Source: Campylobacterales bacterium (GTDB taxonomy: Bacteria > Campylobacterota > Campylobacteria > Campylobacterales > Hydrogenimonadaceae). From it: a stretch of DNA of 62,011 nucleotides. The DNA is taken from positions 1 through 62,011 of the forward strand of contig JALWMA010000033.1 in assembly GCA_027081015.1 (NCBI GenBank), in the 5' to 3' direction. How positions within the stretch are numbered: the first letter of the stretch is position 1; each line of letters opens with the position of its first letter. A model generated the notes under the pieces. It did no database searches and was not told the origin of the DNA. It saw only the letters and a list, made by a program, of their open reading frames with translations. The position numbers were made by a program, and so were the translations under genes. Of this stretch, positions 56,223-61,697 are shown in pieces.

Positions 56223-56305
56223 CTTCTAAACCCTATGTATATTTGGCATCTTTTATCGGTTAACCGTTTGATATTCTGTTGTGACTCTTTCACTTTCTGC
56301 TACTG

Positions 56306-56518
56306 TTGTTTCTGTATTATACATTGTGCAGTCGGGGCGGGGTCATTATAGTCGAACAAAAGCGCATCGAAGCGGCATTTTGGGGTGCCAATTACATTGC
56401 CGGTGAAATCATCAAAAACACCAAAACGGGTGACAAACTCCTTATGCAAAGGCTCAAAGAGAATCTGCCCGAAGCGTTGCATAAAAAAGCGTTAAATGCT
56501 CAAGTAAAACACTTGTGA
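56306..56518 (+). CDS. Small ORF of doubtful status at the island edge
   Basis: Up to 70 residues from a TTG; the more gene-like part begins after residue 12 (VEQKRIEAAFWGANYIAGEIIKN read in parts) and ends LNAQVKHL. No ribosome site and no ATG. It may be the tail of a decayed gene. Function not recognised. The flanking stretches 56223-56305 and 56519-56575 show nothing else. Confidence 0.25.
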   Translation: MFLYYTLCSRGGVIIVEQKRIEAAFWGANYIAGEIIKNTKTGDKLLMQRLKENLPEALHKKALNAQVKHL

Positions 56519-56575
56519 TTTGAAGATTGATTATATAGCAATGTAGCACTCTCCCAAAGCCCACTTAGAATGTGT

Positions 56576-56581
56576 TATAAT
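56576..56581 (+). promoter_or_regulatory. -10 box of the AbiEii-type gene pair
   Basis: TATAAT preceded by TGTGT, 33 nt before ATG 56615, which has the strong ribosome site AAAGGAGG. Confidence 0.5.
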
Positions 56582-56614
56582 AGTAAAAAATTATACCGAT
56601 GAAAGGAGGCGGTC

Positions 56615-56920
56615 ATGCTGTATTACCGACGACGCAACTCTACCGAACCGGTACCCAGGCAACGCATGCACCGCCATCCGTTGCTGACTCTCGTCAATTG
56701 GTCCTACGATCGTAGCCGACACTTGGATGAAGAGCGGTTTAGAGCGATTTTGAGCCGGTTTGACGAACACTATGCCCATATCTATCTGCGTATCTTCAAC
56801 GAAGTACCGGCAGAAGTTCTATGGTCTTTCGTTGCCGAAAACGAATTGCACGAAAGCGACATAGAGAGCATCTATGACGAGATGCACCGGTTCGGGGTCG
56901 ATCTGCGTCCACTTCGATAA
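56615..56920 (+). CDS. Small protein coupled to the AbiEii-type gene (possible antitoxin)
   Basis: 101 residues with strong AAAGGAGG upstream. The N-terminus is basic (YYRRRNSTEPVPRQRMHRH), the rest helical and acidic (EERFRAILSRFDEHYAHIYLRIF, WSFVAENELHESDIESIYDEM, read in parts). No wHTH of the AbiEi antitoxin type is apparent. TAATG overlap (56918-56922) with the nucleotidyltransferase gene, the arrangement of toxin-antitoxin pairs; an antitoxin role is inference. Confidence 0.65.
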   Translation: MLYYRRRNSTEPVPRQRMHRHPLLTLVNWSYDRSRHLDEERFRAILSRFDEHYAHIYLRIFNEVPAEVLWSFVAENELHESDIESIYDEMHRFGVDLRPLR

Positions 56921-57823
56921 TGTACTCACCTTCTGATTTCTCCGATCAAGCCCGACTCTTCGATATCGCCCTGGCGATTTTGGAAGACTACGATATCACT
57001 ACCTGGTCACTGGGCGGCGGTACGGCGCTTTCGATGCTCTATTACCGACACAGGCTCTCTTATGACATCGATATCTTCATCGAATCATTCGGAGAGCTAC
57101 AGCGTATTCTCGATCATAAAGAGGAGATCGCCGCCAATCTCTGCATCGATCGCAAAGCCATCCTCTCTTCTCCTACCGGCGTGACGTTTGTGCTTGACGA
57201 TGAAGCACACGGTTTGAAACTCGATTTTGTCTATTCTCCGCCACTCACAAGCAAGCCTTTTGTGCAATGTGATGTATTTGATCACAGTGATATTACGGTG
57301 CAAACGCCGCTTGAAATTGTCGCCAAAAAGCTCAAATTCCGTGAAAAAGCGACAATTCGGGACCTTTGTGGATTATGCTATCGCTGAAGAGAAAGACGGG
57401 CTTTTGAGTAAGCTCAAAATGGAAAATGTGGTCAATATCGATCGCTACTTCGATCTGATTGAAAAATTCGACTCGATATCCAAAACCATTTTCGATGAAG
57501 AGTTACGATGGCTCATCCCAAATTCCTATATTTCCAAAGAGACATTCGCCGATACGATTTACGGACTGATGAAGCCTAAAGACAAAACGGTCCGTGTAGC
57601 TATCGATCCTTCCTGGGAAGTCGTAGCCTTTGATGAGTTTATCCCTGCCTACCAAGAGCAATACTCCCCGATCGGTAAGCTTGAAATCTACACGATCCCA
57701 AACACGGGGATGGATTATAAGGAGCTAATGAGTCTGGAGAAAACTCAGATTGTAGAGATGGCTTCCGAAGAGAATGATTCTCAAGACAATGTCGAAATTT
57801 CCAATAGTGACAATAGGGATTGA
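56920..57823 (+). pseudogene. AbiEii/AbiGii-type nucleotidyltransferase, frameshifted
   Basis: The first part (to 57387) has the toxin-family nucleotidyltransferase motifs WSLGGGTALSMLYY and SYDIDIFI, then LEIVAKKLKFREKATIRD. At 57361-57370 the frame is lost; removing one C of GACCTTTGTG restores IRDFVDYAIAEEKDGLLSKL, which runs on to a stop at 57823. The two halves together (about 300 residues) form a normal-length protein. As read, the product stops at 155 residues, lacking the C-terminal half. Confidence 0.75.
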
Positions 57824-57849
57824 AGGAAAATATTTTGGGAAAAGTGCGA

Positions 57850-58248
57850 ATGACACGTTCTGAGAATATGCGTAGAATTAAAGCAAAAGGCACTAAAATA
57901 GAACGTATACTCGCCAAAGCAATGTGGAGAGAGGGACTTCGCTACCGAAAAAATTGTAAAGATGTGTTCGGAAAGCCGGATTTTTGCTTTAAAGGCAAGA
58001 AGATAGCGATTTTCTGCGACAGTGAATTTTGGCATGGTAAAAAGTTTTTAGAGGGTGAAAGATTTAAAACAAATAGTGATTTTTGGGAAGAGAAAATTAA
58101 ACGCAATATTGAACGGGACAAAGAAGTGAATAAACGATTAGAAAGTGAAGGTTGGACGGTGCTTAGGTTTTGGGGTAAAGATATAGAAACGAACACAGAT
58201 AAGTGTGTAAACAAAATTATGCGGTACATACAAAAGGATTCAAAATGA
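57850..58248 (+). CDS. Vsr-like DNA endonuclease (zinc site lost)
   Basis: 132 residues from ATG 57850 (MTRSENMRRIKAKGT); an in-frame TTG at 57820 is possible. Vsr fold features: RSENMRRIKAKGTKIE, KPDFCFKGKKIAIF (catalytic Asp44), FWHG (His62), TNSDFWEEKIKRNIERD, LESEGWTVLRFW. The Cys and His zinc ligands around THGCFWHHHHC of E. coli Vsr are replaced (CDSEFWHGKKF). Likely a single-strand nick or restriction nuclease of the neighbouring methylation system. Stop overlaps the ATPase start by 4 bp. Confidence 0.85.
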   Translation: MTRSENMRRIKAKGTKIERILAKAMWREGLRYRKNCKDVFGKPDFCFKGKKIAIFCDSEFWHGKKFLEGERFKTNSDFWEEKIKRNIERDKEVNKRLESEGWTVLRFWGKDIETNTDKCVNKIMRYIQKDSK

Positions 58249-59888
58249 GCGACAAATTGAAAATGACGTTTGATCCTAGGACTATAGAGCATCTCGGTAT
58301 TAAGATGTATTCTACGCTACCTCCGGCTATTGCTGAATTAATCGCAAACGCTTATGACGCTTGTGCAAGTGAAGTATTAGTAAAGCTTTCAGATAATCCC
58401 AAGAAAATAGAAGTTATTGACAATGGAACCGGCATGACTTTCGATGAAGTCAATGAGTACTTTCTAAAAATAGGACGGAACAGAAGGATAGAATCTCAAG
58501 AAATTCCTTGTGACAGGTTTCCTACCGGGAAAAAAGGTCTTGGAAAGCTGGCTTTGTTTGGAATCGGAAAAAAAATAGAAGTTATCACCAAAAAAGATGG
58601 AGAGAAAATCGGTTTTGTAATGGATTGGGACGAAATAATGTCTACGGGCGGTGTGTATGAACCTAAATTTGAAAAAGATACATGTTCAGCCGATGAGCAT
58701 GGAACAACAATAATCGTACATGATCTAAAAAGAAAAGCAGGTTTTGATATAGATTCACTTGCTGTTTCTATTGCAAAACTATTCAATTTCAATGATGAAA
58801 GTTTTCATATAAAATTAATTCTTAACGGCAATAATGAGATTGAAATCGACAGGGATTTGAAATTCAAAGGCATTACAAGGCAATTTGAATGGACTGTTAC
58901 GGATGATGTCAAAATGCTTTTGAGTGATGAAAAATATGAGCACCTCAATGATGTAAAGGGAAAACTATTTACATCGGAAAAGCCTTTAAAACCGGGTTTA
59001 AGGGGGATCACTCTATATGCAGACGGTAGAATGGTTAATCTGCCGGAATTTTTCGGAGTTTCTGAATCTAGTCATTTTTTCTCTTATTTGACCGGCTATT
59101 TAGATATTGATTTTGTCGATCAATGGGATGAAGATGTCATTTCAACAGATAGGCAATCATTGGATTGGGATCATGAGAAACTTCAATCATTAAGAGCATT
59201 TTTGCAAAGAATAATTATGGCGATATCCAAAGACTGGAGAGAAAAGAGAAAAAGAAAAAAAGAAGAGGAGGTTCAGCAATCTACCGGAATAGATATTCAA
59301 AATTGGCTAGATAAAACACCTAGGAATATTCGAGAGAAATTAAATACTGTTATATCCTCAATATCTGATAAAGATGTAGAAATGCCTGTTGAAAAACAAA
59401 GAGAGGTCGTCGAAACAATACACGAACTAGTGCCAGAATACCCTTATTACCATTGGCGTCATTTGCATGAAGCAATACATAGAGTATCAAAAGAAGATTA
59501 TGAAAAAGGTGACTATTTTCGAGCAGCTGAGGACGCTGTAAAAGAATATGAAAATATTGTTAAAAAAGTTTCAGAACTTACAGATAAAATGGGTGTGGAC
59601 TTAATGAAAAATGCATTTGGAAGAGATTGTAGTAATTCAAAAATTAACATTACAAATTGTTCAAACAGAACTGAAAAAAACATTGAGAATGGACAGCAAA
59701 ATCTCTCCGTTGGACTAATTTCAGGATTTAGAAATCCTGTTGCCCACGAGCCTAAAAAAGACATTCATCCTTCACTATTTAGTGATAAAGATTGTCTGGA
59801 TATTTTAAGCTTAACTTCTTATCTTCTCAATAAGCTTGATCAGAGGGTTAAACCGCCGATAGAGGATAATGAAGAAACTGAATCTTGA
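58245..59888 (+). CDS. MORC/MutL-like GHKL ATPase with HEPN-like tail
   Basis: 547 residues from ATG 58245 (ATGA overlap with vsr). The GHKL ATP-binding motifs are complete: AELIANAYDA (31-39), VIDNGTGM (57-64), GKKGLGKLALFGIG (95-108). The middle resembles the transducer region of MORC-type ATPases. The C-terminal 120 residues include a helical domain with RNPVAHE (496-502), the pattern of TIGR02391/HEPN-type abortive-infection domains. MORC-like ATPases are known partners of prokaryotic restriction-modification genes. Very AT-rich. Confidence 0.85.
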   Translation: MSDKLKMTFDPRTIEHLGIKMYSTLPPAIAELIANAYDACASEVLVKLSDNPKKIEVIDNGTGMTFDEVNEYFLKIGRNRRIESQEIPCDRFPTGKKGLGKLALFGIGKKIEVITKKDGEKIGFVMDWDEIMSTGGVYEPKFEKDTCSADEHGTTIIVHDLKRKAGFDIDSLAVSIAKLFNFNDESFHIKLILNGNNEIEIDRDLKFKGITRQFEWTVTDDVKMLLSDEKYEHLNDVKGKLFTSEKPLKPGLRGITLYADGRMVNLPEFFGVSESSHFFSYLTGYLDIDFVDQWDEDVISTDRQSLDWDHEKLQSLRAFLQRIIMAISKDWREKRKRKKEEEVQQSTGIDIQNWLDKTPRNIREKLNTVISSISDKDVEMPVEKQREVVETIHELVPEYPYYHWRHLHEAIHRVSKEDYEKGDYFRAAEDAVKEYENIVKKVSELTDKMGVDLMKNAFGRDCSNSKINITNCSNRTEKNIENGQQNLSVGLISGFRNPVAHEPKKDIHPSLFSDKDCLDILSLTSYLLNKLDQRVKPPIEDNEETES

Positions 59889-60917
59889 TTATAAGTCGAT
59901 AGCTTTCTTTATCATCTCCGCCTGTTTCTTAATGTACGCCGGCGGCAAAGCATTACCGATCATCAACGCGATTTTATCGCGTGCGATGTCGGTGGGAAAT
60001 TTGTAATCTTTCGGAAAAGTCTGTAAAAGCGCGGCTTCCCGGAGTGTGATAGCCCTATCCTCTTCAGGATGCAAAAACCGACCTTTAGAAGGATTTGTAC
60101 AACCGCCGGTAATTGTCGGTGCTACATCATCCCATTTCATACGACCGTATACGTCTCGAAAACCGTTAGGATATTTCAAATGGCACGGTAACCAATACTC
60201 TTTCGGTAGATCTTTTCTGCTCCCCCCGTTTTTCGGAATAAGCGAAATCATTTTTTGTACTTTATCAGTACGTTTTACGGCATAGTCATGAAGCGGATCA
60301 GCCCCGCTGCCCGGTGTATGCACATTTGAGAGTGTATCTCTTACGGTCTTTTTAGTGCTTGATTTATGGGCAAACGGGATCTTTTTTCCCCTGCCGGTCA
60401 TCAAGATCATGCGTTTTCTTCTTTGAGGTACGCCGTATTCGGATATATCATGAATTTGTACTGTTTCGCTATCAACGTGATAACCGAGTTCTTTGAGGCG
60501 GGTAAGCACTTTCTTGATTCTGGGATCTTTGGCTAACCCCGGGACATTTTCGATGAGGATCGCTTTCGGCAATAATTCTTCCGTGAGTCTCAACATTTGA
60601 AATACCAAATCATTTCTCTCATCATTAACGGAAGAAGCGGCATTTTTTGTGCGAAGAGATGAAAAACCTTGGCAGGGAGGACAGCCGGCGAGGAGATCCA
60701 GTTCTCCTTTTTCGATTTGCAAGGCATTAAAAATCTCTTCAGGTGTAAGCTCTTGTATCGGTTTATTCCATAGCCTGCTCTCCGGATGATTCAATTGATA
60801 AGCTTTGGAGACAACCGGATCTATTTCAGCCGCACCGATAACATTGAAGCCTGCCTGCTTAAGTCCTTCAGTCAGTCCTCCGGCACCGCAAAATAAATCT
60901 ATGGCTCTTGGCTTCAT
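59889..60917 (-). CDS. DNA (cytosine-5-)-methyltransferase
   Basis: 342 residues with the C5-methylase motifs in order: I DLFCGAGG (7-14), IV GCPPCQGFS (78-86, catalytic Cys82), VI ENVPG (123-127), VIII QRRKRM (165-170), IX/X near REAALLQTFP and MIGNALPP. The short target-recognition region is about 190-270, so the site cannot be predicted. Its stop abuts that of the ATPase gene with no gap. TATAAT on the minus strand at 60953-60958. Confidence 0.95.
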   Translation of the reverse strand: MKPRAIDLFCGAGGLTEGLKQAGFNVIGAAEIDPVVSKAYQLNHPESRLWNKPIQELTPEEIFNALQIEKGELDLLAGCPPCQGFSSLRTKNAASSVNDERNDLVFQMLRLTEELLPKAILIENVPGLAKDPRIKKVLTRLKELGYHVDSETVQIHDISEYGVPQRRKRMILMTGRGKKIPFAHKSSTKKTVRDTLSNVHTPGSGADPLHDYAVKRTDKVQKMISLIPKNGGSRKDLPKEYWLPCHLKYPNGFRDVYGRMKWDDVAPTITGGCTNPSKGRFLHPEEDRAITLREAALLQTFPKDYKFPTDIARDKIALMIGNALPPAYIKKQAEMIKKAIDL

Positions 60918-60985
60918 ACTCTCATCCGAATATCTTTCTTTATTTATATGTAATTATACAGGCAAAAGCTTGTTATGATATTAAT

Positions 60986-61025
60986 ATTTGTTAAATTGAC
61001 TAATAAAATAAAATTTGTTAAAGTG
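60986..61025 (+). promoter_or_regulatory. Direct repeat over the HTH gene promoter
   Basis: ATTTGTTAAATTG (60986-60998) and ATTTGTTAAAGTG (61013-61025) agree in 12 of 13 bases, 27 bp apart. They overlap a TTGACT-17 nt-TAAAGT promoter (60996-61001, 61019-61024) of the HTH gene and face the divergent methyltransferase promoter. A likely binding site for the HTH protein itself. Confidence 0.5.
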
Positions 61026-61030
61026 TAGCT

Positions 61031-61468
61031 ATGAAAAGAGATCACAAAGAATTTGAAACACTCCTCAAAGCCAAGGGTATTAGAAAAAAAGCATTCTCCA
61101 CATACAGCGGCATTCCTTACGACACCGTTGCCGGCTGGAAAAAGTCGGGGCGGGTGCCCCCTTATGCGATGGTGCTGCTTGTTCAAATGCCCTCAGGCAG
61201 AGAGTATGTGAGTGCTGGTGAGCTTCTTAAAGCTGGATTGCCCAAAGCTGTACTGTGGAACAACGATCCGGATAAAAAGGTGCCTACCGATATTTTTATC
61301 GTAGCAACACTAATGAGAGCACATAATGACTTTGTTATCGATAAACTTACCGAGTATTTTGGTAAAGAAACCGTTTTGGCGGCACTTTTGACGCATAAAG
61401 AACAAATTTCCGCACATTTGGCCCGGCGGGTTGCGGAACATATCCGCCGGTTTCCAAAATCCGCATGA
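61031..61468 (+). CDS. HTH protein, possible controller of the R-M system
   Basis: 145 residues. The N-terminal part (RKKAFSTYSGIPYDTVAGWKKSGRVPPYA, read in parts) looks like a helix-turn-helix of the phage CI/XRE kind. The remainder is helical (DIFIVATLMRAHNDFVIDKLTEYFG, HKEQISAHLARRVAEHIRR) and not recognised. It is divergent from the methyltransferase with only 113 bp between them, the position of a controller gene. Confidence 0.65.
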   Translation: MKRDHKEFETLLKAKGIRKKAFSTYSGIPYDTVAGWKKSGRVPPYAMVLLVQMPSGREYVSAGELLKAGLPKAVLWNNDPDKKVPTDIFIVATLMRAHNDFVIDKLTEYFGKETVLAALLTHKEQISAHLARRVAEHIRRFPKSA

Positions 61469-61697
61469 TTCCCGTAGCGGTATCGGAAAGACTAAAAATC
61501 AAAGGGCGGCATTAGCGAGTTTAGAGCGTTGAAAGCATATCGGTACCAGAGGTGAAAACACTGTAGCCCTTGTGCTTGCACTCTCTGTGAGAAAGCTCTG
61601 CCCATTTTCTATCTTGGAGAGATTTACGAATTTAAAAAAACAGATAACATGGGGCTTTCGCCGGGTGCACCCCATTAATGAGTCGTCACAGCGTATA
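61469..61697. other. Gene-free right edge of the island
   Basis: No convincing gene. An inverted repeat ATGGGG/CCCCAT with an inner GGGTGCACCC lies at 61649-61675. It may be a terminator for the HTH gene or debris of an insertion end. Confidence 0.4.

Follow-up and report, generated by a model that had tools for sequence, protein, structure and literature searches.

A candidate BbrUII/HgiDII-like restriction-modification cassette whose restriction-enzyme homologue carries a predicted HEPN RNase domain in place of a DNase

The BbrUII/HgiDII restriction-modification (R-M) systems, in which a restriction enzyme of family NF050001 is encoded beside a C5 cytosine methyltransferase (MTase), are the closest described relatives of the three-gene cassette discussed here. 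We found it on a 62,011-nucleotide stretch of contig JALWMA010000033.1 (assembly GCA_027081015.1) from a Campylobacterales bacterium, hereafter called the window. The cassette encodes a Vsr-like protein, a protein with a GHKL ATPase and an S5 transducer module (the GHKL protein), and a C5 MTase (Table 1). As in the BbrUII/HgiDII systems, MTase and GHKL-S5 protein are adjacent and the N-terminal ~400 residues of the latter are homologous; the genes of those systems are also often convergent and sometimes accompanied by Vsr. In contrast to them, the window protein lacks the PD-(D/E)xK DNase, has a HEPN RNase fold instead, and is not a member of the equivalog family. We think it probable that the cassette is an R-M system of this type with an RNA-cutting restriction arm, acting through abortive infection and equipped with Vsr as an accessory. 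We also lean, if only slightly, towards a recurrent R-M class in which the same MTase and Vsr are combined with either a DNA-cutting or an RNA-cutting GHKL effector, and unmodified DNA would lead to cell shutdown.

Parts of this picture have been described before. Neighborhoods of Vsr, cytosine methylase, and MORC/paraMORC proteins were described in 2008 by Iyer et al. (PMC2292703), and fusions of paraMORC to Ymh near R-M genes were noted in 2013 by Anantharaman et al., with an analogy to PrrC/RloC (PMC3710099). These fusions share with the window protein a GHKL module, a C-terminal Ymh (HEPN) domain, and a place near R-M genes with Vsr and cytosine methylase as neighbors (PMC3710099; PMC2292703). 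However, PMC3710099 gives them a single sentence, in which they appear as an accessory resembling PrrC/RloC; it neither recognizes them as the restriction arm itself nor reports that DNase and RNase replace each other next to one MTase and Vsr. In the anticodon nucleases PrrC and RloC, too, a HEPN RNase is joined to an ATPase and linked to an R-M system, but their ATPase is of the ABC type rather than GHKL, and the primary defense of PrrC is a DNA-cutting Type I system. In VcSduA (Shedu type, paraMORC3), a GHKL ATPase controls a fused C-terminal nuclease and both are needed for defense; its nuclease, on the other hand, is of the PD-(D/E)xK kind (DUF4263), and the paper treats VcSduA as an independent defense system (PMC12137116). 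Our analysis adds that the paraMORC protein is homologous to BbrUII/HgiDII restriction enzymes but no longer has their DNase, that effectors of the DNase and the RNase kind have been exchanged next to near-identical MTases, that some units consist of two genes only and have no Vsr, and that Vsr is most likely a repair enzyme.

The GHKL protein and its HEPN tail

An earlier note on this DNA, made from the sequence alone, had read the three genes as an R-M/defense cassette with a MORC/MutL-type ATPase of the kind described by Iyer et al. Both descriptions hold, as do the gene coordinates, the ATGA overlap, and the convergent, abutting MTase gene, and all three proteins match Pfam/NCBIfam profiles. 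What the note overlooked is the C-terminal HEPN (Ymh) domain and the restriction-enzyme homology of the ATPase. Consequently, its statement that the cassette lacks a classic restriction enzyme is only partly right: the DNase part is indeed missing, but the GHKL protein is itself a restriction-enzyme homologue.

This homology spans residues 6-387, which align to positions 2-412 of the 659 in the NF050001 model (E = 2.1e-66); the score of 224.8 bits lies below the family cut-off of 550, so that the protein does not count as a full-length equivalog. The GHKL plus S5 module also matches HATPase_c_3 (E = 9.6e-21), and the ATP-site residues E31, N35, D59, G61, G63, G95, and K97-K101 are invariant in an alignment of 14 homologues (A3). 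An AlphaFold2 (AF2) model of the full-length protein, with a mean predicted local distance difference test score (pLDDT) of 74.8, finds Hsp90, MutL, and SMCHD1 in Foldseek. In PADLOC, the N-terminal part comes up as a Type II restriction enzyme, and the C-terminal part resembles Aga_HEPN and PD-Lambda-3_B. Judged from sequence, the N-terminal ~390 residues are homologous to BbrUII/HgiDII-type restriction enzymes. A GhXhhpXXRhl motif in S5 distinguishes MORC proteins proper from paraMORCs (Iyer et al. 2008); we assign the window protein to the paraMORC rather than the MORC side from its Ymh fusion and HgiDII-type N-terminus. Human sacsin has a comparable layout, with an Hsp90-like GHKL domain and, at the C-terminal end, a HEPN domain, and the NCBIfam model of the sacsin N-terminus matches the GHKL part of the window protein (E = 1.2e-6).

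The tail belongs to Ymh, a HEPN RNase family (PMC3710099), as it matches PF09509 over residues 405-533 (E = 6.3e-23; 81.3 bits, gathering threshold 25) and TIGR02391 (E = 7.2e-31). R496 and H501 of the RX4H motif are invariant in all 14 intact homologues. Compared by VIA-align, the AF2 model of this domain (pLDDT 79.8) has six best chains with the HEPN arrangement, whereas the first unrelated fold follows at Z 4.5. Two of the chains are titled HEPN, namely archaeal 2hsb (Z 8.2) and the second-best, human sacsin 3o10 (Z 8.0), with a root-mean-square deviation of 3.4 over 108-111 residues; 1ufb and the toxin 7bxo come next. This ranking lends moderate support to the modeled helical fold of the domain.

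The DNase-type relatives are longer (600-690 amino acids, aa) and end in a PD-(D/E)xK tail with the motif RRIDFLC...IIELKRP, of which D53, E67, and K69 (D..ExK) are invariant in the closest of them (alignment A4). These tails show weak Pfam matches to HSDR_N_2 and NucS_C and a weak match to NucS in the Protein Data Bank (PDB). NF050001 aligns from 2 to 649 of 659 to the DNase-type proteins of loci L098, L093, and L056, but stops at 412, 415, and 401 in the window protein, L091, and L036, where TIGR02391 takes over. The D..ExK motif of the relatives is absent from the HEPN type, the window protein included, and residues 387-405 are only a linker; on both grounds we rejected a hidden DNase. By sequence comparison, then, the PD-(D/E)xK DNase of the family is missing here, and its position is taken by a HEPN domain whose RX4H site is intact.

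Distribution and effector exchange

Searching 85,000 species genomes with an alignment of two sequences, we obtained 18 loci, not fully independent since L083 and L084 are near-identical. A C5 MTase gene lies beside the GHKL gene at every one of them and a vsr gene at 14. The hosts comprise Sulfurimonas, Sulfuricurvum, Neisseria gonorrhoeae, Chelonobacter, Haemophilus parainfluenzae, Bacteroidota, Fibrobacter, Ignavibacteria, Armatimonadota, Alphaproteobacteria, and Patescibacteria, so the co-occurrence across genomes that the earlier note had named as a test is found, across many phyla. The usual order is MTase, GHKL-HEPN, Vsr; the window arrangement (Vsr before GHKL-HEPN, with a convergent MTase) occurs in three Campylobacterota, and Sulfurimonas and Sulfuricurvum (L076 and L077) have retained it. 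Because of this conservation, and because C5 MTase and GHKL genes stand together with or without Vsr in so many phyla, the arrangement is not due to chance. An intact trio also lies on an IMG/VR contig (L036) and in a further Neisseriaceae genome (L101). In H. parainfluenzae (L091), only MTase and GHKL-HEPN are found, between core LigB-type and YdbH genes. Elsewhere the effector is broken: the gonococcal trio has two stops in it and a frameshifted MTase next to an open vsr, and L082 (one stop) and L076 (a frameshift in the HEPN part) have kept Vsr. Such losses are as expected for a costly, toxic effector.

The window MTase matches PF00145 (E = 3.6e-58) and TIGR00675, has intact PCQ, ENV, QRRKR, and GNALPP motifs, and is 87% identical to that of L076, 73% to that of L077, and 61% to that of Pantoea (L033). 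The same three-gene order, including Vsr, is found with DNase-type effectors in Pasteurellaceae (L098 and L099) and Altiarchaeales (L093). The MTase of L098 is 81%, 79%, and 75% identical to those of the HEPN-type loci L091, L086, and L094, and this similarity extends to the target-recognition region. For Vsr, identities in this group are 61-74% (74% between L098 and L086), whereas the L098 GHKL part is only 37% identical to the HEPN-type counterparts. Similarly, L093 compared with HEPN-type L078 and L036 gives 77% and 75% for the MTase and 62% and 66% for Vsr, against 44% and 45% for the GHKL part. With MTase and Vsr conserved and effectors divergent, the effector gene has therefore been exchanged beside the same modification gene. 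As far as these sequences go, DNase-type and HEPN-type effectors look like interchangeable restriction arms of one modification arm.

This position of the effector also bears on the proposal of Anantharaman et al. for paraMORC-Ymh fusions near R-M genes (PMC3710099), by which HEPN would be a second-line back-up in the manner of PrrC/RloC, set free once a DNA-cutting R-M system at another place has been inhibited. L079 and L089 do lie in islands with other R-M genes. Yet the GHKL-HEPN protein sits exactly where the DNase-type restriction enzyme sits, next to the same MTase, and several loci (L091 and L049) have no DNase-type R-M neighbor; we consider a back-up role unlikely.

In a tree of the N-terminal parts, the DNase-type radiation encloses the two HEPN clades, which allows one or two origins of the HEPN type (44% of bootstraps give a single one). 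More distant Campylobacterota pairs of GHKL protein and C5 MTase (L007, L009, and L010; none of the three with Vsr) have another HEPN-like tail, whose RNxxxH aligns to R496/H501, and are apparently further HEPN-type effectors of this R-M family. Their tail type is seen at the Campylobacterota loci L007/L044, L009/L042, L010/L043, and L017/L049, reading R-D-A-M-A-H in L017, and an Mrr-like gene adjoins L044. The GHKL and C5 MTase pairs of L042, L043, and L056 adjoin the Tn7-like transposition genes TniQ and TnsA and are likely transposon cargo. The P2-like Escherichia phage PhiR44_1 (L059) encodes, between portal and replication genes, a 652-aa DNase-type relative annotated "ParaMORC3", convergent with a Dcm-type MTase.

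The Vsr protein

The window Vsr matches PF03852 (E = 7.9e-26) and TIGR00632 (134.4 bits, cut-off 97.85). E18, D44, H62, and D90 are invariant or nearly so (alignment A5), and the aromatic pair F60/W61, which contacts the mismatch in E. coli Vsr, is kept. The zinc-ligand cysteines of the E. coli enzyme are lost: the protein reads FCDSEFWHGKK instead of FTHGCFWHHHHC, with Glu, for instance, in place of Cys66 (alignment A5); the protein was also aligned to E. coli Vsr (1cw0). A gonococcal Vsr (L053), 54% identical, likewise lacks the zinc cysteines (FVDGEFWHGKD) and retains the catalytic residues and the F-W pair. It adjoins pheS and a truncated MTase of 133 aa. Since NgoAXIII has been described as VSR followed by an MTase of 112 or 133 aa (PMC6789123), we identify L053 as V.NgoAXIII; the other gonococcal Vsr, in the gonococcal trio, would by elimination be V.NgoAXIV, Vsr occurring at two places in the record. 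These assignments rest on gene context and elimination. V.NgoAXIII recognizes T:G mismatches whatever their context, and MutL with ATP stimulates it (PMC6116569, PMC6789123). The activities of the two gonococcal enzymes were determined in an organism that has MutL, whereas none was detectable in the window's host genome (99.9% complete, with one Vsr), where the sole match to a MutL model is the window GHKL protein itself (27 bits).

On its residues, the window Vsr is predicted to be a mismatch endonuclease of PD-(D/E)xK fold and of the V.NgoAXIII class. Because V.NgoAXIII recognizes T:G mismatches and both the catalytic residues and the F-W pair are kept, it is most likely a repair enzyme for 5-methylcytosine deamination at the MTase sites. 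The earlier note had instead suggested that Vsr cuts the DNA and that the ATPase serves as its clamp or licensing factor. A parallel for this is MutL, which stimulates Vsr and MutH. No other member of the trio has a DNase fold, the vsr and GHKL genes overlap in the window, the gonococcal enzyme responds to MutL and ATP (PMC6116569), and in a host without MutL the GHKL protein could take its part. But the ATPase is a restriction-enzyme homologue with a predicted nuclease of its own (HEPN, an RNase fold), and Vsr is missing at 4 of the 18 loci that retain MTase and GHKL-HEPN, including the two-gene H. parainfluenzae unit. Vsr equally accompanies GHKL proteins with their own DNase (L093, L098, and L099) and other restriction enzymes, in the unrelated AlwI-type and PLD-type plasmid systems (L058 and L054). 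Its characterized relatives are mismatch endonucleases, the closest with reported activity being V.NgoAXIII as identified here, and active site and F60/W61 are intact. Given this co-occurrence pattern and these relatives, we dropped Vsr as the cutter from the position of leading model and find it quite improbable.

Genomic setting and proposed mechanism

The vsr and GHKL genes share the ATGA at 58245-58248, and the GHKL stop codon (59886-59888) abuts the stop of the convergent MTase gene (59889).

Table 1. Features of the cassette and its insertion in the window
Feature	Positions	Strand	Size and evidence
vsr	57850..58248	+	132 aa; alternative TTG start at 57820; PF03852/TIGR00632
GHKL-HEPN effector gene	58245..59888	+	547 aa; NF050001, HATPase_c_3, TIGR02391/PF09509
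GHKL ATPase, S5 transducer, and helical linker	58245..59405	+	residues 1-387; alignment A3 of 14 homologues
Ymh-family HEPN domain	59457..59885	+	residues 405-547; predicted RNase motif R496-N-P-V-A-H501; PF09509
C5 cytosine DNA methyltransferase	59889..60917	-	342 aa; convergent with effector gene; PF00145, TIGR00675
Strain-specific insertion	56223..61697		between 4HBT thioesterase gene and ribA; same-genus comparison, G+C

In same-genus genomes, the genes for UDG, a 423-aa protein, the 4HBT thioesterase, and ribA are contiguous and free of trio genes, which identifies the region in between as an insertion. Besides the trio, it contains a small gene and an AbiEii-like gene with a frameshift. 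The Vsr and ATPase genes have a G+C content of 35-36% and the MTase gene of 44.6%, compared with 51.1% for the window; the cassette is a horizontally acquired DNA-methylation/defense unit between core genes. The AbiEii-like nucleotidyltransferase toxin gene (56615-57823; PF08843, E = 1.7e-11) lies directly upstream of vsr, split into open reading frames (ORFs) 56920-57387 and 57227-57823 behind a 101-aa ORF, and is a broken remnant of another defense gene; an AbiEi/AbiEii-like pair is likewise found upstream of the system in L079. The small gene (61031-61468) encodes 145 aa with a helix-turn-helix-like N-terminus, is divergent from the MTase gene with a similar G+C content (45.9%), and possibly encodes a regulator; it gave no family match and no homologue in the related loci fetched. 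We rejected both this gene and the AbiEii-like gene as parts of the module, as the related loci fetched contain no homologue of either. In a genome of another family of the same order (G313), positions 5158-5355 of L038 hold what is left of the GHKL gene, 53 aa that are 87% identical and include one stop. This remnant adjoins a 4HBT gene as in the window, so that the two perhaps share an insertion site.

In the mechanism we propose, the MTase would mark self DNA at its own site, and the GHKL/S5 module, as a MutL-like ATP-driven dimer clamp, would sense foreign DNA without this mark. Dimerization driven by ATP would then join the HEPN domains and switch on the predicted RNase, which may cut tRNA or other RNA and so shut down the infected cell (abortive infection), while Vsr would nick T:G mismatches arising from deaminated 5-methylcytosines made by the MTase. 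Classical restriction destroys foreign DNA, whereas abortive systems sacrifice the cell; here the phage is probably stopped by disabling the infected cell and not by cutting phage DNA. In VcSduA, variants in ATP hydrolysis or in the nuclease abolish defense (PMC12137116), a finding that speaks in general for the control of fused nucleases by GHKL modules.

The same molecular logic, with unmethylated DNA triggering an RNase, could also serve a methylation-linked toxin-antitoxin unit, in which HEPN kills cells that lose the MTase and thereby have unmethylated self DNA, phage defense being secondary. Addiction upon MTase loss is known for classical R-M systems, and the cassette is mobile, patchy, and often broken. 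We regard this as very improbable as the main function: it overlaps with the favored explanation instead of opposing it, and there is no direct evidence of killing upon loss.

Several points weigh against an RNA-cutting R-M system. We infer the RNase activity, the RNA it would cut, and its triggering by unmethylated DNA, and the literature searched held neither an activity for a GHKL-HEPN protein nor an experimental test of a GHKL-HEPN R-M system. The HEPN fold match is moderate (VIA-align Z 8), and Foldseek returned no significant PDB match for the domain model. The window GHKL protein is paired with an MTase (35% identical) and a Vsr of other clades than those found with most of its relatives, so the effector may not read the site of this MTase. 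Finally, as most trios keep Vsr, it may have a role beyond repair.

If the exchange is real, L098 (DNase) and L091/L086 (HEPN), with MTases 79-81% identical, would represent a natural swap experiment, and one self/non-self mark would be readable by either kind of effector. Such pairs allow a direct test of how a MutL/MORC-type GHKL clamp senses unmethylated DNA, a question shared with the eukaryotic MORC proteins. In addition, taking Vsr genes in R-M loci for restriction enzymes is likely a mistake, which the finding corrects.

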